Source: Planobispora longispora
Lineage (GTDB): Bacteria > Actinomycetota > Actinomycetes > Streptosporangiales > Streptosporangiaceae
Assembly: GCF_016863135.1 (NCBI RefSeq)
Contig: NZ_BOOH01000044.1
Location: 62,001-126,000, forward strand
Direction of reading: 5' to 3'
Length of the DNA: 64,000 nucleotides
The position numbers and the translations under genes are program-made. The notes beneath the pieces were generated by a model that searched no databases, was not told the origin of the DNA, and saw only the letters and a program-made list of their open reading frames with translations. Positions 4,821 to 47,799 of this stretch are shown piece after piece; position 1 is the first letter of the stretch; the number at the start of each line of letters is the position of its first letter.

Positions 4821-4923
4821 ATCCAGTAGTCCCTCCCCGGCGCCCTCGATTACCGGTCCGGGCGAGAAATCCTCCCGGACCGGTCCCCCGCTCCGGACAC
4901 GGGCCGGGTCCTCCGCTCCGGGC

Positions 4924-4975
4924 GCGGGGCGAAGTCCTCAGTCCCGGACGCGGGGCGAAGTCCTCAGTCCGGGCG
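4924..4975. repeat. 26-bp tandem direct repeat
   Basis: Two near-identical 26-bp copies beginning GCGGGGCGAAGTCCTCAGTC lie between the sigma gene and the FtsX-type gene, and the second copy runs into the last codons of the permease (stop at 4964). It looks like a local slippage duplication. Confidence 0.8.
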
Positions 4976-7054
4976 CGGGGCGGGGTCGGCGGTGACCGAG
5001 CGGAGCAGCGGGGCGCTCGCCGCGCCCGCGCCGATCACCCCGGCGAAGCCGAGGGTCACGCAGATCAGCAGGATGGTCATCCCGCCGACGTTCACCGAGG
5101 AGATCGAGAACGGCACGGCGCAGAACATCCCGATCACGATGGAGCCGCCGCCCATGACCGCCAGCGGGACGAGCGTCTCGGCGCGGCGCGCCCGGTTGAG
5201 GACCTCCAGCGGAGTGCCCGCCAGCCGGAGCAGGGCGTAGGTCTGCCTGCGGTCGAGGATCGAGGAGGCCGCGGTGATCCCGGCGCTGACGACGGCGACC
5301 AGGAAGGAGACGGTGAGCACGACGACGGTGCCGGTGCCGACGTCCTTCAGCAGCAGGACGCCGAAGCGCTCCTCGTCGGCGGCGGAGGTGGCCGTGCGGC
5401 CGGGCACCAGCCCGTCGAGCGCCGTCCTGGCCCGGTCGATCACCGCCTCGTCCGCCCGCCCCGTCCCCGGACCGGCGCTCTTCTCAGCGACGGTCTCCTC
5501 ACCGGTGGGTTTCCCGGTGGCGGCTTTCTCGGCGGCGGGTTTCCCGGTGGCGGAGCCGCCTCCGCTCTCCGTCCCGCCGTCCCCCGCCGTCCTCCCGACC
5601 TCGACGGTGAGCAGTTTGTCCTCGCCCTTGCCGGTGACCTCCACCCGCGCCGGAACGCCCGCCGCCGTCAGGCGCTCGCGCGCCTCGGCGGTGAACCGGG
5701 ACGCCTGGGCGGCGGGGACCGTGACGCGCAGGGTGGCGGGGTCCGCGTCCCCCAGAAGGTCGCTCGCGGGGCTCAGGAACCCGATGAAGCCCGCCACGAA
5801 CCCCGTCATGGCCACACCGCTCACGGTCCGCCAGGCCGCCTTCGGGTCGTCGACCAGGCGGCGCCCGGCCAGCAGGCGGGCGGGTCCGCGCGCCGTCCCG
5901 GCCGTGATCCTGCCGATCACACCGACCACCCAGGGCCCGGCCAGGTTGATGGCGAGGAAGGCCAGGCCGAGCACGACGGCGACCACCCCGGCCGCGGAGC
6001 CGGCGCCGAGCGTGGGCACCACCGCCAGGACGGCCAGCAGCGCGACGATCCGGACGAACCGCATGGCCGGCGGGGTCTCCCGCCGGGCCACGCCCAGCGG
6101 GCTGACCACCACCCGGCGCAGCCCGACGACGGCGGACAGGCCGACGAGCAGCGGCACGGCCCCCAGGACGGCGAGCGTGTACGGCACGCCCGGCCACAGG
6201 TCCGCGGCGAACCAGGCGCCGCCCCCGATCTCGATCCCGGCCAGCAACGGGGTGAGCAGGCCGTACAGGACCGTGCCCGCGACCGCGCCGGCGGCCGCGG
6301 TGATCATCGCCTCGGCGACGGTCATCGTCACCACCTGCCCGGGGGTGGCGCCGACCAGCCGGAGCGCGGCCAGCCGCTGGTCGCGTCGGGCCACGGTGAG
6401 CCGGGCCGCCGCGCCCCCGAACACCAGCAGCGGCACGGCCATGAGCACGGTCGCGATCAGCGCGAGCGCCTGGTACGCCTGCGCGTCGGGCGAGGGCGCG
6501 CCGGTGAAGTCCGCCACCCGCGTCGGCGGGAACCCGTCGCGCGGGTCTCCGGCGACCGCGGCGGTCATGATCGGAGAGTCCGGCGCCTGGCCGCGGACCG
6601 CGACCAGCTCGCCGGGGTGGACCAGCGCCTCGTCCCCGACGGTCCCGGCGACCTTCTCCGGGAACCGGCCGGCGAGCTCGCCGGCCGGGAGCTCGCGGGC
6701 GAGTTCCGCCAGCGCCGGGGAGAACCAGACCTCCCCCGGGGCGGGAAGCCGGTCCAGGCCGGGCGGCGGGGCCGCCCCGGGCTTCAGCACGGCCAGATCC
6801 ACGACCGTGACGGTCCGGTCGCGCACGTAGTCCTTGTGCACCGCCTGCACGGCCACGGCCGCCGTGCCCACGGCGACCGGATTGCGCCACGCCTCCCGCT
6901 CGGCCCTGCCCTGGAAAGCCACGTTGGCGGAGACGGAGAAGATCAGAAGCGCGGTGCTGACCGCCACCGCCACCGCGGTCAGTCCCGCGCCCAGCAGCCC
7001 CCGGCGGCCGCCGCCGCGCAGCAGCCGCCAGCTCAGTCCCAGCGGCCCGCTCAT
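4964..7054 (-). CDS. FtsX-like ABC transporter permease
   Basis: A 696-aa MacB/FtsX-type permease. It has an N-terminal membrane segment (LLGAGLTAVAVAVSTALLIF), an extracytoplasmic region, a first FtsX core (roughly 195-310, with the conserved LAALRLVGATPGQV loop), further membrane segments, a second extracytoplasmic region containing a repetitive low-complexity stretch (ATGKPAAEKAATGKPTGEE), and a second FtsX core (about 560-690, with YALLRLAGTPLEVL). Such permeases usually act as mechanotransmission or lipoprotein/antibiotic export pumps. Its start overlaps the ATPase stop by 4 bp. Confidence 0.9.
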   Translation of the reverse strand: MSGPLGLSWRLLRGGGRRGLLGAGLTAVAVAVSTALLIFSVSANVAFQGRAEREAWRNPVAVGTAAVAVQAVHKDYVRDRTVTVVDLAVLKPGAAPPPGLDRLPAPGEVWFSPALAELARELPAGELAGRFPEKVAGTVGDEALVHPGELVAVRGQAPDSPIMTAAVAGDPRDGFPPTRVADFTGAPSPDAQAYQALALIATVLMAVPLLVFGGAAARLTVARRDQRLAALRLVGATPGQVVTMTVAEAMITAAAGAVAGTVLYGLLTPLLAGIEIGGGAWFAADLWPGVPYTLAVLGAVPLLVGLSAVVGLRRVVVSPLGVARRETPPAMRFVRIVALLAVLAVVPTLGAGSAAGVVAVVLGLAFLAINLAGPWVVGVIGRITAGTARGPARLLAGRRLVDDPKAAWRTVSGVAMTGFVAGFIGFLSPASDLLGDADPATLRVTVPAAQASRFTAEARERLTAAGVPARVEVTGKGEDKLLTVEVGRTAGDGGTESGGGSATGKPAAEKAATGKPTGEETVAEKSAGPGTGRADEAVIDRARTALDGLVPGRTATSAADEERFGVLLLKDVGTGTVVVLTVSFLVAVVSAGITAASSILDRRQTYALLRLAGTPLEVLNRARRAETLVPLAVMGGGSIVIGMFCAVPFSISSVNVGGMTILLICVTLGFAGVIGAGAASAPLLRSVTADPAPRPD

Positions 7055-41963: not shown

Positions 41964-42179
41964 GGCCTCTCCGAGGAAGTGGGGGATCTCCGCCTCAGGA
42001 TGTCCCGGCTCGCGGCGCCGTCTCACCTTCGAGCGTGCTGTCTCGTCCCTGGACCTCCCTCGGGCATTCGGACGGCTGGCCGGCTGGTGATTTCGGTCAT
42101 ATTGGCCGGAAGACTGCTCTCTGTCAGCCTTGATCCCCATAATTGGTGATCCGCAATGACCGCCGCAGGGGGAGCCATC

Positions 42180-44117
42180 ATGCCGGATGTCAGACCGATC
42201 GGCCCGGGGGATCCCGGACGCGTGGACGGGTACGAGATCGTCGGCCGGATGGGGGACGCGGTCTATCTGGGACGCTCGCCCGCCGGGGCCCGGGTCGTCG
42301 TCAGGCTGCTCCCGGCCGATCTCGATCCGGAGCGCTTCCTCGCCGCGGCCGGGCCGCTGCGGGAGATCTCGGCGTTCTGCACCGCCGAGGTCCTGGACAC
42401 CGGGGTGGCGGACGGCCGGCCGTACATCGTGAGCGAGTACATCGACGGCCCCAGTCTCAAGGAGGCCGTCGCCTCCGGGGGCGTCCTGCGGGGCGCGGCG
42501 CTGCACCGGCTCGCGGTCGGCATGATGACGGCGCTGGTCGCCGTCCACCAGGCCGGGATGACGCACGGCGACATCCGTCCCGACAACGTGGTGCTGGGAC
42601 CCGACGGGCCGCGAGTGATCAACTTCGGGGTGGCCAGGGCCCTCTCCACGACCGACGCCGCCGACACCCGCAGCGTCGGCGTCCCGGCCTTCACCGCCCC
42701 GGAACTGCTCCGGGGCGAGGAGCCCGCGCCCGCGGCCGACCTGTTCGGCTGGGCCGCGACCCTGGCGTTCGCCGCGACGGGCCGCTCCCCCTTCGACGGC
42801 GGCTCGATGGCCGGGACCGTCAACCGCATCCTCAACGACGGACCGGATCTGGAGGCGGTGGAGGACGACCTGCGCGGCGTCGTCGCGGCGTGCCTGTCCA
42901 AGGACCCGCACGCCCGCCCCGCGGCGAGCGACGTCCTGCTCAAGCTGGTCGGCGAGCTGCTCACCACCGACCTCGGCCCGCCACCCGCCGCCACCCGCCC
43001 GGTACGGCGCGGCCGGCCGCTGCTGCTCGGCGCGGCAGCGGTGGCCATCGCCCTGCTCTCCGGGAGCTCCGTGTACCTGTTCACGTCCCCGTCGGCGGCC
43101 TCGGCGCCCGTCGCCGCGAGCACGCCGTCCCCGGCCGGGGAGCTCCTGCCCTCCGCCGCCCCCGCCGCCACCGGGCCGGAGGTCGTGCTCTCCCCGCTGG
43201 AGGAGGTGGAGAAGGCGTCCGAGGACGTCGCCCTGCCCGACATCGGCATCACCCTGCACGAGCATCCGGAGGACCCGGTCAGGCTCAGCGGCTACACGTG
43301 GGTGAAGAAGCCCTTCAACACCTTCGTCCGGGAGAAGGGCAAGGACGCCTACCGCCAGGTGGACGCCCTGATGTCCCCGGCGCTGTCGCCGGACGAGGGG
43401 CGGGTGGCCCTCAGCCCCACTCTGAAGTTCACCCAGTCGGACATGGACTACCTGAAGATCACTGAGGTCGCGACCGGCGAGGCCTTCACGGTGCCGACCG
43501 TGAAGAAGCCGTTCGAGACCGCCTTCCCGGTGTGGTCGAAGGACGGTACCAAGGTGCTGCTCACGGTCATCCAGAAGGACAAGGCGGTGAGCGGCGGCTT
43601 CGTGGTCGTGGACGTGACCGCCAGGAAGTCCACCCTCGTGGTGACCGAGGTCGTCGGCTCCTCCACCGACCCCTTCACCTTCGCCCCCGACGGATCGGTC
43701 GCCCGGCGCTACTTCGACGGCAAGACCTCCGGCGCCGACTTCTACAACCTCCAGGGGCAGGTCGTCCGGACCATGCACTGGGTCGGCTCCCCCCGCAGCG
43801 TGAACTGGTTCTCCCCGTCCGGGAAGCTCTTCACCACCGTCTGCCCCAGGGAGAAGGGCATCTGCGTGTGGGACACGGCGACCGGCAACCGCCGCCACAC
43901 CGTCCCCATCACCGACGTGGACGAGCTCCTCGGCTGGTTCAACGAGAACCACCTGCTGGTGGTGAAGAACGTCGGGAAGAACCGCCAGGCCCAGGTGATC
44001 GACTTCGTCGGGGGGACGCAGCGGGTGCTCGCCGACATCAAGGGCAGGGTCGACGCCGAGGCCGAGGGCAAGGACATCGCCGCGATCCTGAGCTTCACCC
44101 GAAGGTCGGCCCCCTGA
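42180..44117 (+). CDS. Transmembrane pseudokinase of the Ser/Thr kinase family
   Basis: A 645-aa protein with the PknB-like layout: kinase fold (about 15-265), one membrane helix (about 280-302) and an extracytoplasmic beta-propeller-like domain (about 345-645; LSPDEGRVALSP, FPVWSKDGTKVLLT, FAPDGSVA, WFSPSGKLF, ICVWDTATGN). Key catalytic positions are changed: the Gly-rich loop is degenerate (GRMGDAV), the VAIK Lys is Arg42 (VVVRLL), HRDLKPEN is HGDIRPDN (129-136), and DFG is NFG (148-150). It should lack normal catalysis. Start ATG 42180 follows GGGGGAG. Coupled to the next kinase by TGATG. Confidence 0.88.
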   Translation: MPDVRPIGPGDPGRVDGYEIVGRMGDAVYLGRSPAGARVVVRLLPADLDPERFLAAAGPLREISAFCTAEVLDTGVADGRPYIVSEYIDGPSLKEAVASGGVLRGAALHRLAVGMMTALVAVHQAGMTHGDIRPDNVVLGPDGPRVINFGVARALSTTDAADTRSVGVPAFTAPELLRGEEPAPAADLFGWAATLAFAATGRSPFDGGSMAGTVNRILNDGPDLEAVEDDLRGVVAACLSKDPHARPAASDVLLKLVGELLTTDLGPPPAATRPVRRGRPLLLGAAAVAIALLSGSSVYLFTSPSAASAPVAASTPSPAGELLPSAAPAATGPEVVLSPLEEVEKASEDVALPDIGITLHEHPEDPVRLSGYTWVKKPFNTFVREKGKDAYRQVDALMSPALSPDEGRVALSPTLKFTQSDMDYLKITEVATGEAFTVPTVKKPFETAFPVWSKDGTKVLLTVIQKDKAVSGGFVVVDVTARKSTLVVTEVVGSSTDPFTFAPDGSVARRYFDGKTSGADFYNLQGQVVRTMHWVGSPRSVNWFSPSGKLFTTVCPREKGICVWDTATGNRRHTVPITDVDELLGWFNENHLLVVKNVGKNRQAQVIDFVGGTQRVLADIKGRVDAEAEGKDIAAILSFTRRSAP

Positions 44118-46309
44118 TGCCGGTCGATCCTCTGCGCGCCGCCGATCCCGTGCGGATCGGCGGCCACCGCATCGTCGGCAGGCTGGGCGCGGGCGGGCAG
44201 GGCGTGGTCTACCTGGCCGAGTCGCCTTCGGGTGAGCGGGTCGCGGTCAAGCTGCTGCGCGCCGACGCCGTCGACTCCGCCGCAGCCGGATCCCGCGCGC
44301 TCGCGGAGCCGGCGAAGCGCGCGGAGCTCGCGGAGCTCGCGGAGCTCGACCGGGAGATCGAGCTGGCGCTGCGGGTGAAGGCCTTCTGCACGGCGCAGGT
44401 GCTGGAGCACGGCGAGTTCGGCGGCGCGCCGTACATCGTGAGCGAGTACGTCGACGGCCCCAGCCTCGCGCAAGTGATCTCCGAGCGCGGGGCCCTGCGC
44501 GGCACCGAACTGCGCAGGCTGGCGATCGGGACGCTCACCGCGCTGTCGGCGATCCACCAGGCGGGCGTGGTCCACCGGGACCTGAAGCCCGCCAACGTGC
44601 TGCTGGCCAGGGACGGGCCCCGCGTCATCGACTTCGGGATCGCCCGGGCGGCGGACTCCGAGGCGACCACCGAGCACCTCGTCGGCACTCCGCCCTACAT
44701 GGCGCCCGAGCAGTTCAACGGGGCGCCGGCCGGACCGGCCTCCGACATGTTCGCCTGGGCCGCCACGGTGACCTGCGCGGCGACCGGGACACCCCCGTTC
44801 GGCACGGGGCCGATGCCGGCGACCATCCACCGGATCCTGTCCGGCGAGCCGAAGCTGGGCGATCTGGAGGGAGAGCTGCGGGAGCTGGTCCTGCAGTGCC
44901 TGGCCAAGGATCCGGCGGCGCGGCCGAGCGCCACGACCGCGCTGCTGCGGCTGCTGGGCCATTCCGTGCCGCCGCCGCGCCTGCTGGCCGAGGGGCGCGC
45001 CCGGGCGGGAGGGCATGAGACCGGCGGGCCGGACGACGGCAGACCGGATCGCGCCGGACCGGATCGCGCCGGACCGGATCGCGCCGGGCCGGAGACCGGC
45101 GTGCGGGGGAACCCCTCCGGGCTCCAGGACACGCTTCCCGCGCCGGGCTCCGGCCCGCCGGCGCGGACCCGCCGCGCGGCCGTGGCGGGCCTCGCCGCGG
45201 TGGCTCTCGCGCTCTCCGCCGGGGTGGGGATCCATCTGGCGCGGACCTCGGGCGAACGGCCGGAGGGCGCGGGCAGCGGCACGGGCGACAGCGCGGCGGG
45301 TCGCGGTACGGCGGATGGCGGTACGGCGACCCCCCTCGCGCGGCGCAGGACCGGCGGGACCATGGCCCCCGAGTCGACCACGTCGGTGCGGATCCCGGGA
45401 ACGGGGATCACCTTGCGGGAGAACCCCGCGGATTCCTGGCGGGTCACCTCCTATGAGGACAACCGGAACGTCATGGCGTCGGGCCCCTCGTCCGTCAGGG
45501 CCGCCGACGGGGACGCCTTCGAGGAGTTCGAGGGCCGGCACGACCTCGTCGTGTCCCCGGGAGGCTCGTTCTTCGTGGCCAGCCCTCAGTTCAAGACCGA
45601 TTTCTTCGACTTCGACCAGGTCCGCGTCGTCGATCGGGCCACCGGGCGGCAGTCCGTCGTGCGGACCGTCGGGCGACCGGCGCAGAGCCGCTACCCGCGC
45701 TGGTCGCCCGACGGCTCCCGGGTGCTGCTGACCGTCTTCGAGTCGGTCGGGGCGGAGCAGCTGATCGGGCGGAGCACGGGCTTCACGATCGTGGACGCGG
45801 CGGAGCGCAGGGGGCGGTTCGTCGCCGTCGCCGACGACAACGACGGACCGCACGTATACGCCTGGGGCCCCGACGGGACCACCGTGATCCAGCAGGCTCC
45901 CGGCGGCGCGGTCCGGGTCAGGAACCTGGACGGCACACTCGTCCGCACGCTGTCCTCGGTCGGCACGATGACATGGGACGACGTCGCGGTCAGCCCGCTG
46001 GGCACGGTCGTCACCACAGTCTGTCCCGATAAATCAGGAAACATCTGCCTATGGGACTACGTCACCGGCGTGAAGAAGGCCACGGTGCCCATGCCCGGGG
46101 GAACGGCCTTCGCCGGCTGGCTGGGCGAGCGCAACCTGCTCGCGGTCAGGTCCGGGGGGAAGGAGAAGGAATCCGGGAAGAGGAAGGAATCCGGGGGGAA
46201 GGAGAAGGAAGTGGTCATGCTCGACCTCCGGGGCCGTGCCGTACGCGTCCTCGCCGAGGGCCCCGCAGCCGAGATGGACAAGATCGCCCTCGAGTACACC
46301 GCGCGGTGA
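44117..46309 (+). CDS. Transmembrane Ser/Thr protein kinase
   Basis: A 730-aa kinase with all catalytic residues: GAGGQG, Lys45 (VAVK), HRDLKPAN (153-160), DFG (172-174), and GTPPYMAPEQF. The N-lobe has an AELAELAEL insertion from 9-bp repeats (about 44322-44348). The linker carries DRAGP three times from 15-bp tandem repeats (about 45044-45090). A membrane helix at about 353-374 is followed by an extracytoplasmic beta-propeller-like domain homologous to that of the upstream pseudokinase (PRWSPDGSRVLLT, VSPLGTVVTTVCPDKSGNIC). A Lys/Glu-rich GKEKESGKRKESGGKEKE stretch interrupts the last blade. TGATG coupling implies the two proteins are made together. Confidence 0.92.
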   Translation: MPVDPLRAADPVRIGGHRIVGRLGAGGQGVVYLAESPSGERVAVKLLRADAVDSAAAGSRALAEPAKRAELAELAELDREIELALRVKAFCTAQVLEHGEFGGAPYIVSEYVDGPSLAQVISERGALRGTELRRLAIGTLTALSAIHQAGVVHRDLKPANVLLARDGPRVIDFGIARAADSEATTEHLVGTPPYMAPEQFNGAPAGPASDMFAWAATVTCAATGTPPFGTGPMPATIHRILSGEPKLGDLEGELRELVLQCLAKDPAARPSATTALLRLLGHSVPPPRLLAEGRARAGGHETGGPDDGRPDRAGPDRAGPDRAGPETGVRGNPSGLQDTLPAPGSGPPARTRRAAVAGLAAVALALSAGVGIHLARTSGERPEGAGSGTGDSAAGRGTADGGTATPLARRRTGGTMAPESTTSVRIPGTGITLRENPADSWRVTSYEDNRNVMASGPSSVRAADGDAFEEFEGRHDLVVSPGGSFFVASPQFKTDFFDFDQVRVVDRATGRQSVVRTVGRPAQSRYPRWSPDGSRVLLTVFESVGAEQLIGRSTGFTIVDAAERRGRFVAVADDNDGPHVYAWGPDGTTVIQQAPGGAVRVRNLDGTLVRTLSSVGTMTWDDVAVSPLGTVVTTVCPDKSGNICLWDYVTGVKKATVPMPGGTAFAGWLGERNLLAVRSGGKEKESGKRKESGGKEKEVVMLDLRGRAVRVLAEGPAAEMDKIALEYTAR

Positions 46310-46414: not shown

Positions 46415-47641
46415 TCAGTGCTCCGGGTTGTTGGTCAGCGGGATCTCGATGCTGATCCGCCGCGCTTCGGACAGGTAGACCAGGACCACCTTGCGCAGGA
46501 GCTCGTCGAAGAGCCAGTAGGTGTTGCCCGCCCCCGGGAACCTCTCGAGCACGCCTTCGCGGACGGCGATGAAGGGCTCCCAGAACGTGTCGAGGATCCC
46601 GTCCCAGAACGGGTACCTGGAGATCTTCAGCCACTCGGCGATCTGGTCGCCGAGCAGGAAGCGCGTGAACGCGCCGAGCACGCGCTTGCTGAGGATGCCG
46701 GCGTCGATCGCGGCGCCGAGGTTGAGGAGGATGTCGGCCAGTTTGACGCCCTCGGGCGTCGGGGCCAGCACCGGGTCCAGGACCTGCCGGGCCTGGGAGT
46801 CGGCCTCCTCCCACGACGCGGGGATGTACTCGTCCTTGATGCCGAGCAGGTGCGCGGCCAGCTGCCAGGAGTGCAGGAAGGCCGCGGACTCTCCGGCGGG
46901 GATCGGCACCTTCCACGCGGTCAGGTTCTTCATGACGGTCGTGGGCAGGCTGTGCCAGGTGACCATCATGTCCGCCTGGCTGATCGGGATCTCCTCGTCG
47001 GCGGACTTCTGCCAGTACGGGGACTTCGGCAGCAGGTGGCGCACGGCCGCGTGCACCAGCCGGGTCTTGACGCACGTCACGATCATTTCGCCGTCGGCGT
47101 CGTAGGCCTTCCGGGACCCGATGTCGTACCCGAGTTTGGCGGTCTTGGAGATGCGGTCCTTCATGTCCGCACCGCCCTGGGAGTAGTAGACCGCGCGCGC
47201 CTCCTTGGGGATGACCGTGCTCATCATGCCGCTGGCGAAGCCGTACAGCACGCCGAGGTAGAGTCCCCGCTTGTCGTTGAACGCGACCGCGGTGGCGAGC
47301 TTCCCCCGGTCGGCCCACGGCGGCAGCCGGCGGGCCCGCTCCATGAAGTCCCGCAGGTCCGCCGGGAGCCCGTCGGGCAGCGGCTGGCCGTTCTTGGTCC
47401 AGGTGCGCAACAGCGCGTTGACCCTGGGCACGTCCCCCCGGTCGATCAGCGAGGCGACCAGCGGGTCTGCCTCCTCGTCCCACACCCACCGGGGATCGAG
47501 GCCGGCCCCCGCGCCGGCCACCGAGCCGCTCGGCGACCACGTCCACACGCGCGCCTGCGCGGGCGCCGCGATGCCCAGCGCGCCCAGGGTGCCCAGGGCC
47601 CCGCCCGCCTTCAGCATGTCGCGCCTGCTGAGTTCGCCCAT
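46415..47641 (-). CDS. lcp: Latex-clearing-protein-like haem oxygenase, Tat-exported
   Basis: A 408-aa DUF2236/MpaB-type oxygenase. The Tat signal is SRRDMLKAGGALGTLGALGI ending APAQA. Blocks matching rubber oxygenase Lcp are FNDKRGLYLGVLYGFASGMM, VTCVKTRLVHAAVRHLLPKS (with the candidate haem-ligand His), and MMVTWHSLPTTVMKNLTAWK, LAAHLLGIKDEYIPASW. Lcp cleaves poly(cis-1,4-isoprene) outside the cell. Start ATG 47641 puts the Tat motif at the N-terminus. Divergent from a TetR regulator, as known for Lcp in Gordonia. Activity on rubber is inferred, not shown. Confidence 0.82.
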   Translation of the reverse strand: MGELSRRDMLKAGGALGTLGALGIAAPAQARVWTWSPSGSVAGAGAGLDPRWVWDEEADPLVASLIDRGDVPRVNALLRTWTKNGQPLPDGLPADLRDFMERARRLPPWADRGKLATAVAFNDKRGLYLGVLYGFASGMMSTVIPKEARAVYYSQGGADMKDRISKTAKLGYDIGSRKAYDADGEMIVTCVKTRLVHAAVRHLLPKSPYWQKSADEEIPISQADMMVTWHSLPTTVMKNLTAWKVPIPAGESAAFLHSWQLAAHLLGIKDEYIPASWEEADSQARQVLDPVLAPTPEGVKLADILLNLGAAIDAGILSKRVLGAFTRFLLGDQIAEWLKISRYPFWDGILDTFWEPFIAVREGVLERFPGAGNTYWLFDELLRKVVLVYLSEARRISIEIPLTNNPEH

Positions 47642-47799
47642 GCCTTCGTCCCTTCTCCTCGTGAGGTCGAGAGCAGTGCTGGTACGGTGAAACAAATAAC
47701 GAATCTGCGTATCATCAATACAGCACACCGTGTCGGGCATCACAAGACCGCGACAGCGACTGTTGGCGATTGAGGCAGAATCAAGAACAGGAGGTGATC

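Follow-up and report, generated by a model that had tools for sequence, protein, structure and literature searches.

A tandem pseudokinase-kinase gene pair with related propeller domains in Planobispora longispora and its relatives in Streptosporangiaceae

Here we report the analysis of two overlapping genes for paralogous membrane proteins of the Ser/Thr kinase type in a 64,000-nucleotide stretch of the Planobispora longispora genome (assembly GCF_016863135.1, contig NZ_BOOH01000044.1, positions 62,001 to 126,000), which is called the window below and whose own numbering is used for all coordinates. The upstream protein is best read from its sequence as a pseudokinase without ordinary catalysis, and its downstream paralogue is an intact kinase; each carries a related beta-propeller predicted to lie outside the cytoplasm. 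We propose, with somewhat better than even confidence, that the gene pair specifies a heteromeric receptor kinase, with the upstream pseudokinase as one subunit and the downstream protein as the enzyme. The gene order and overlap, the single origin of the pseudokinases and their lasting inactivating changes fit a pseudokinase partner of this kind, and from these features we infer heteromer formation, sensing and allosteric control.

Organization of the gene pair

The upstream gene (42180..44117, plus strand, as are all features of the pair) encodes 645 amino acids; an in-frame ATG at 42156 offers an alternative start, and the Shine-Dalgarno match is better for the start at 42180. The downstream gene (44117..46309) encodes 730 amino acids and is joined to the first by a TGATG stop/start overlap (44115..44119), in which one base is common to both genes. 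In both proteins, a kinase domain is followed by one predicted transmembrane helix, which is the most hydrophobic stretch, and by an outer domain. The upstream protein thus ordered has a pseudokinase domain (42204..42956, delimited by hmmsearch with a family kinase profile), a helix (43023..43082) and a TolB/WD40-like extracytoplasmic propeller (43224..44114); the downstream protein has an intact kinase domain (44138..44965), a helix (45176..45235) and a related propeller (45386..46306), and by sequence and model fits a PknD-like layout. The kinase domains match the Pfam family PF00069 with 76.4 bits in the upstream and 137.7 bits in the downstream protein (cut-off 31.7), and the proteins are 34% identical in a BLASTP alignment. 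A first-pass annotation of this DNA had described genes joined by TGATG whose products share a layout and related outer domains, and the location of the overlap, the single predicted helix in each protein, their identity and the propeller models bear it out.

In the AlphaFold2 model of the upstream protein, the outer domain has a predicted local distance difference test score (pLDDT) of mostly 80-95 and about 24 strands when counted by eye, as six four-stranded blades would give. TolB ranked first in a VIA-align comparison of this domain (Z 17.1, root-mean-square deviation 3.7, 254 aligned residues), with WD40 proteins at about 15, and TolB and PknB-type chains took the top ranks in Foldseek.

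Several catalytic motifs of the upstream protein are degraded. Its VAIK-type motif reads VVVR, with Arg42 (42303..42305) at the position of the beta3 Lys, versus VAVK in the downstream protein, HGD (42564..42572) replaces HRD, and NFG (42621..42629) replaces DFG. These motifs had been listed in the first-pass annotation, as had the completeness of the downstream kinase (VAVK, HRD and DFG), and the alignment supports both. Two further changes were absent from it: the glycine loop is degraded to GRMG-DAVYLG (42243..42272), four residues shorter than GRLGAGGQGVVYLA in the downstream protein, and the alphaC Glu column is occupied by Ala. By the sequence criterion of having lost at least one of the VAIK Lys, HRD Asp and DFG Asp, the upstream protein is a predicted pseudokinase. 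The downstream protein retains all canonical kinase residues (GAGGQG, K45, E80, HRD153-155, N160 and DFG172-174).

Distribution of pairs and triads

The outer domain of the upstream protein is matched at eight places in its own genome, which has 67 matches to the PF00069 kinase family: at both window genes, at two places each on contigs C34 and C45, at a solo kinase on C69 and, weakly, on C66. The C34 and C45 places are likewise pseudokinase-kinase pairs. In a set of 149 genomes, the outer domain was present in 33, including its own, with weak matches in two outside Streptosporangiaceae. A pattern scan covering 84,980 species, each represented by a single genome, depends on conserved peptides and is not exhaustive; it gave 28 loci, of which 26 fall in Streptosporangiaceae and two are weak matches in other phyla. 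Nine named genera are represented, namely Planobispora, Planomonospora, Streptosporangium, Spongiactinospora, Thermocatellispora, Nonomuraea, Microtetraspora, Herbidospora and Thermoactinospora. A plain protein search of 200 Streptosporangiaceae genomes gave matches at 1e-60 in at least 162 of them, a figure that is no count of pairs because this threshold lets in ordinary kinases.

The surroundings of the loci were examined in five rounds, in which stronger or side-by-side matches were chosen and not every match. The first scoring, from which loci repeating a contig under another identifier were taken out by hand, comprised 36 pair-type and 17 triad-type loci with 69 pseudokinases and 50 kinases; a kinase was counted as intact if none of five residues is missing, namely the Lys, the alphaC Glu, the HxD Asp, the Asn and the DFG Asp. 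A later check, which took in 29 more places, mostly matches passed over earlier, added two pairs (L153 and L155), one triad (L154), a lone degraded kinase (L140) and 21 lone intact kinases; L162 repeats L096, and L139, L164 and L165 showed no kinase.

A degraded kinase is present at 39 non-triad loci, one of which (L098) ends at its contig. The first-pass annotation, which suggested a search of Streptosporangiales genomes, had named a lack of conservation of the pair as one ground for refuting its proposal, and the pair is conserved: among the 38 fetched, non-redundant non-triad loci with downstream sequence, the next gene is an intact kinase in 36, and the degraded kinase stands alone at L082 and L140. 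Triads, in which two pseudokinases precede the kinase, occur at 18 loci and are complete at 16; the triad at L129 is cut by a contig end, with the kinase present. The intact kinase is the last gene in every pair and triad that has one, and never lies upstream. Of the 39 solo kinases fetched that carry this outer domain, 38 are intact (17 in the first scoring and 21 of 22 in the later check). The two genes overlap by 1 or 4 nucleotides in 32 of 33 measured pairs (start codons chosen by a script; the frameshifted L096, L098 at its contig end, L153 and L155 not counted), the exception being a 7-base gap at L083. Triad junctions range from -8 to +7, and the two intact relatives that stand in tandem at L087 are 63 bases apart. 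Since the arrangement recurs across Streptosporangiaceae, it is not due to chance.

Several loci show variants of this arrangement. The triads at L077, L080, L114, L123, L124 and L126, among others, each begin with a pair of strongly degraded pseudokinases and end with a single intact kinase, and in the Herbidospora triads the intact kinase has HLD for HRD. At the triad-type locus L127 (G207:C21), two pseudokinases are followed by opposite-strand genes, with no active kinase downstream. In Streptosporangium subroseum (L096), the pseudokinase gene (about 4898-6840) reads as frameshifted after the kinase domain, through either mutation or sequencing error, and the partner kinase is intact. The divergent pair L138 (G220:C38) has a pseudokinase with HHD, and with EPG for DFG, that keeps Lys and has Glu at the alphaC column.

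Conserved changes in the pseudokinases

In an alignment of 24 pseudokinases (A3), Thr163 and the first two residues of HGD never vary, and the Asp of this motif is kept in at least 90%; in the alignment of 24 partners (A4), the glycine loop, Lys45, Glu80, His153, Asp155, Asn160 and DFG are invariant. Of the 36 pair pseudokinases scored, which do not include L153 and L155, 27 lack the Lys, 33 the alphaC Glu (whose column assignment is uncertain in divergent members), 5 the HRD Asp, 19 the Asn and 17 the DFG Asp; one or other of the last two is missing in 34. Triad pseudokinases have lost 4.7 of the five scored residues on average. In the window's clade, the Asn is mostly kept and the DFG Asp lost; in the clade of Planobispora C34, Planomonospora and Herbidospora, DFG is kept and the Asn lost. 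Metal binding would then be impaired by two routes in two clades. Of the two motifs whose conservation the first-pass annotation had put in question, HGD persists (30 of 36) and NFG does not, the DFG Asp being lost in 17 of 36 and most others having lost the Asn instead. NFG was rejected as a defining signature because it marks only part of the pseudokinase family.

These residues bear on whether the upstream protein is still an enzyme of unusual chemistry, a weak kinase or a catalyst of some other nucleotide transfer that acts via the retained Asp. We consider this quite improbable. The HGD Asp persists in 30 of 36 pair pseudokinases and the Lys in 9 of 36, two members (L102 and L108) keep all metal ligands, and SelO and SidJ are cited as enzymes with a kinase fold that lack canonical residues (PMC12599244). 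However, most members have a degraded glycine loop and no alphaC Glu (33 of 36), 34 of 36 lack a metal ligand, the route of loss differing between two clades, and the triad members retain almost none of the scored residues.

Thr163 of the upstream protein, in the activation segment (42666..42668), exemplifies a Thr, usually followed by Arg, whose position is constant in 35 of 36 pair pseudokinases (34 found by pattern and L138 by eye) and which is missing in L033. It lies one residue further on than the canonical loop Thr, and was therefore rejected as its exact equivalent. In active relatives, Ser or Thr stands five residues before the GTP motif in 17 of 17 solo kinases, in 13 of 50 paired kinases, and in 12 of 20 other kinases of the same genome (fetched and fitting the pattern). 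The idea that paired kinases lost the loop Thr was given up, since 40 of 50 have Ser or Thr four to seven residues before GTP; they lost the fixed position only, and loop hydroxyls remain. In mycobacterial PknB, full activity depends on the loop residues Thr171 and Thr173 (PMC6428115). The control of the live subunit might conceivably lean on its pseudokinase partner.

The conserved Thr also bears on a scaffold role for the upstream protein. According to this alternative, which we regard as unlikely, the upstream protein is a phosphorylation target whose partner modifies it, perhaps at Thr163 or in the linker, and thereby recruits a downstream protein, as with MviN and FhaA. Purifying selection on the pseudokinase domain and the retention of the Thr in 35 of 36 would agree with it, and there is a precedent in PknB-phosphorylated MviN, which recruits FhaA (PMC12599244); however, no adaptor gene travels with the pair among 30 loci, although an adaptor might be encoded elsewhere. 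In the same comparison of 30 loci, no flanking gene was common to all clades, sharing being confined to single clades or parts of the set, and a conserved substrate gene next door was rejected on this ground.

Origin and selection

A quick maximum-likelihood tree of 105 kinase domains placed the 44 pseudokinases in one clade with a support of 98 in the Shimodaira-Hasegawa-like approximate likelihood ratio test (SH-aLRT), and 35 paired kinases in another (94), beside which the partner from L033 branches, with 17 solo relatives apart (87). The tree omits repeat entries for named loci, the majority of the unrelated kinases in the window's genome, domains shorter than 200 residues, and L063, L117, L118 and L119-L167, and the program warned of long branches, L033, L115 and L085 among others. 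The pseudokinases and their partners branch in parallel, and the partners of pair and triad types group accordingly. The pseudokinases of L082 and L083, which have lost the HRD Asp and retain the glycine loop, Lys and DFG, branch first, as would be expected of intermediates.

The single clade of 44 pseudokinases points to an old duplication and not to recent decay. Ratios of nonsynonymous to synonymous substitution rates (dN/dS), calculated by the Nei-Gojobori method for 15 species pairs of the window's clade and rough because of the very high GC content, were 0.26-0.53 for the pseudokinase domain versus 0.21-0.47 for the partner kinase domain, and 0.62-0.86 and 0.37-0.84 for the respective outer domains. 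By these estimates, the pseudokinase domain shows constraint close to that of its partner. A recent pseudogene was rejected on the basis of the invariant residues, the single clade, the dN/dS values and a kinase-domain identity like that of the partner. The related notion of a degenerating, functionless duplicate that is kept near its source by linkage could draw on a dN/dS slightly above the partner's and on the one frameshifted copy in S. subroseum (L096), but the pseudokinases form a single old clade over nine named genera, the other scored loci have open frames, and HG, Thr163 and many other residues are invariant in a domain as well conserved as that of the partner. This notion is already largely refuted, and we consider it extremely improbable.

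Joint divergence of the propellers

The kinase domains of P. takensis and P. siamensis are 91-98% identical in DNA in both genes (96 and 95% in amino acids, with synonymous divergence, dS, of 0.09 and 0.08). DNA identity falls to 63-85% in the first outer domain and to 52-83% over the initial two thirds of the second; the sensors are 66 and 77% identical in amino acids, with dS of 0.35 and 0.24. The sensor-to-kinase dS ratios are the highest for either partner among the pairs compared, and the intact kinase domain, which lies between the two divergent sensor parts, is spared. The jump extends to synonymous sites, which makes replacement by divergent alleles a likelier cause than fast selection. 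This joint divergence is one clue that may favour joint action of the two propellers. Between the Herbidospora loci L116 and L079, joint divergence extends over the first sensor and the entire partner. The residual sensor distances of partners correlate across 31 loci (Mantel r 0.34, p 0.001, uncorrected for shared ancestry), and Mantel correlations between partners are 0.83-0.92.

Proposed mechanism and evidence against it

That the pair has been conserved for so long suggests control of the working kinase by its broken partner. In the proposed heteromeric receptor, the observed gene overlap would couple translation and supply both proteins in equal amounts; each protein is predicted to cross the membrane once and expose its propeller. 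The two propellers would deal jointly with a signal or would act on one another, as the joint divergence in P. siamensis mainly suggests. Inside the cell, the pseudokinase domain may touch the kinase domain and set its activity allosterically, and the conserved Thr of the pseudokinase activation segment is a candidate phosphorylation site for the partner. A broader version, which we offer only tentatively and regard as rather unlikely, is that of a lineage-specific class of obligate heteromeric receptor kinases with one live and one or two dead subunits, whose propellers jointly set specificity and are exchanged together; the Thr would be fixed in the pseudokinase, and loop sites of the live subunit would have drifted because control moved to its partner.

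Several observations weigh against the heteromeric receptor. Support for contact between the two proteins is indirect, being of a genomic and evolutionary kind, and gene pairing, parallel trees and the Mantel correlations of 0.83-0.92 would also result from shared inheritance. Three loci (L082, L140 and L127) have degraded kinases but no intact neighbour. The joint sensor divergence amounts to one clear event, the last third of the second sensor in P. takensis and P. siamensis is again 92-94% identical, and the Herbidospora divergence can be explained by one contiguous tract. Since the Asp (HGD in 30 of 36), the Lys (9 of 36) or the metal ligands are retained in some pseudokinases, with Asp, Asn and DFG Asp all kept in L102 and L108, residual or altered catalysis may persist in them. 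L153 and L155 keep the Lys, Asn and DFG and lack, of the five scored residues, only the HRD Asp and the alphaC Glu. L140 (G006:C310, 3233-5254) has a short glycine loop, Arg for Lys and Ala for the alphaC Glu, yet intact HRD, Asn and DFG; we speculate that the start of a pseudokinase may have been fused to a kinase, two paralogues being joined. Of the 50 paired kinases, 36 have Ser or Thr at a distance of five or six residues before GTP and 40 at a distance of four to seven, so a loop hydroxyl is available to most of them. Finally, the AlphaFold2 model of the pseudokinase lobe is poor, with residues 88-169 at pLDDT below 50, for which reason a structural reading of the nucleotide pocket was dropped.

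Related loci and neighbouring genes

The P. longispora genome also contains apparent pseudokinases of other types beside active kinases, at L032 (G000:C11:10000-18500), L034 (G000:C23) and L036 (G000:C36); L032 has HGDVRP without DFG, and L034 has GFG for DFG. Propeller relatives without a kinase domain (L018, L019 and L025) are about 330-360 amino acids long with hydrophobic, signal-peptide-like N-termini, and one in-frame stop was counted within the search match at L018. The neighbour of the pair in the window (46415-47743, minus strand) encodes an MpaB/rubber-oxygenase catalytic domain and a twin-arginine translocation signal.

Comparison with known systems

None of the four described families of bacterial pseudokinases that were compared by their published features fits the upstream protein fully. 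The DYD pseudokinases (O'Boyle et al. 2025, PMC12599244) are actinobacterial and membrane-associated and, like the upstream protein, have Arg for the beta3 Lys and no alphaC Glu. In contrast to them, the upstream protein has a shortened glycine loop, the HGD signature and a tandem active paralogue, and its loop reads NFGVARALSTTDAADTRSV, without the DYD motif. In actinobacterial ActPs1/Act1 proteins, many of which have a C-terminal outer-type PQQ domain, all three catalytic residues are described as replaced (PMC12599244), whereas here the catalytic Asp mostly stays, in the window protein as in the family (HGD in 30 of 36); no Pfam match to the PQQ domain, which many but not all ActPs1 proteins carry, was found in the window proteins at E up to 1. 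ActPs2 is described by Asn for the HRD Asp and deletion of DFG (PMC12599244), and the upstream protein has HGD and NFG. MviN (ActPs3) is an actinobacterial membrane pseudokinase that is phosphorylated by the active Ser/Thr kinase PknB and acts with FhaA (PMC12599244). It is characterized by complete degradation of the kinase motifs, a deletion in the activation loop and a described operon without a paralogous kinase, unlike the window pair with its HGD, NFG, ordinary-length loop and adjacent paralogue.

The AfsK equivalog NF053615 matched with 155 and 180 bits against a curated cut-off of 1300, the match being limited to the kinase domain of the upstream protein and to the kinase and linker of the downstream one. 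A role in defence was rejected: the 31 and 34 PADLOC models matched are mostly PD-T4-6 kinases and mad6, the matches listed run through the kinase domain and in places reach the linker, and they indicate nothing beyond a kinase, as do those in PHROGs.

No such pseudokinase-kinase pair was found described in the open-access literature, a scope outside which most subscription journals fall, and none of the open-access papers searched combines 'pseudokinase' with 'Streptosporangi'. The available text of the 2025 review of bacterial pseudokinase families contains none of 'tandem', 'propeller' and 'WD40' and calls bacterial pseudokinases largely unexplored experimentally (PMC12599244); that of a 2005 survey of prokaryotic kinases counts members without the catalytic Asp and does not contain 'tandem' (PMC1262709). 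The layout of kinase, transmembrane helix and outer sensor is the same in Mycobacterium tuberculosis PknD and PknB, where the kinase is activated through N-lobe dimers and the sensor of PknD has the form of a propeller with six blades (PMC3601408). The closest known logic would be this N-lobe dimer activation with one side dead: PknD and PknB are described as homodimers of active kinases, whereas in the window pair a pseudokinase encoded by a separate, overlapping gene would make up one of the subunits. The system is best read as a variant form of receptor Ser/Thr kinase that includes a dead subunit.

The pair offers a compact two-gene case of live and dead paralogous subunits with matching sensors, found as pairs or triads in nine named genera, and natural variants are at hand in the form of pairs, triads, diverged sensors and early-branching intermediates. 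It bears on how the activity of a live kinase may be set by a dead one, and on whether the heteromeric receptor logic of animal receptor kinases arose independently in bacteria. HER2 and HER3 form such a kinase/pseudokinase receptor pair in eukaryotes, in which a dead receptor subunit controls its live paralogue; the P. longispora pair would follow the same logic if its upstream protein does so too.

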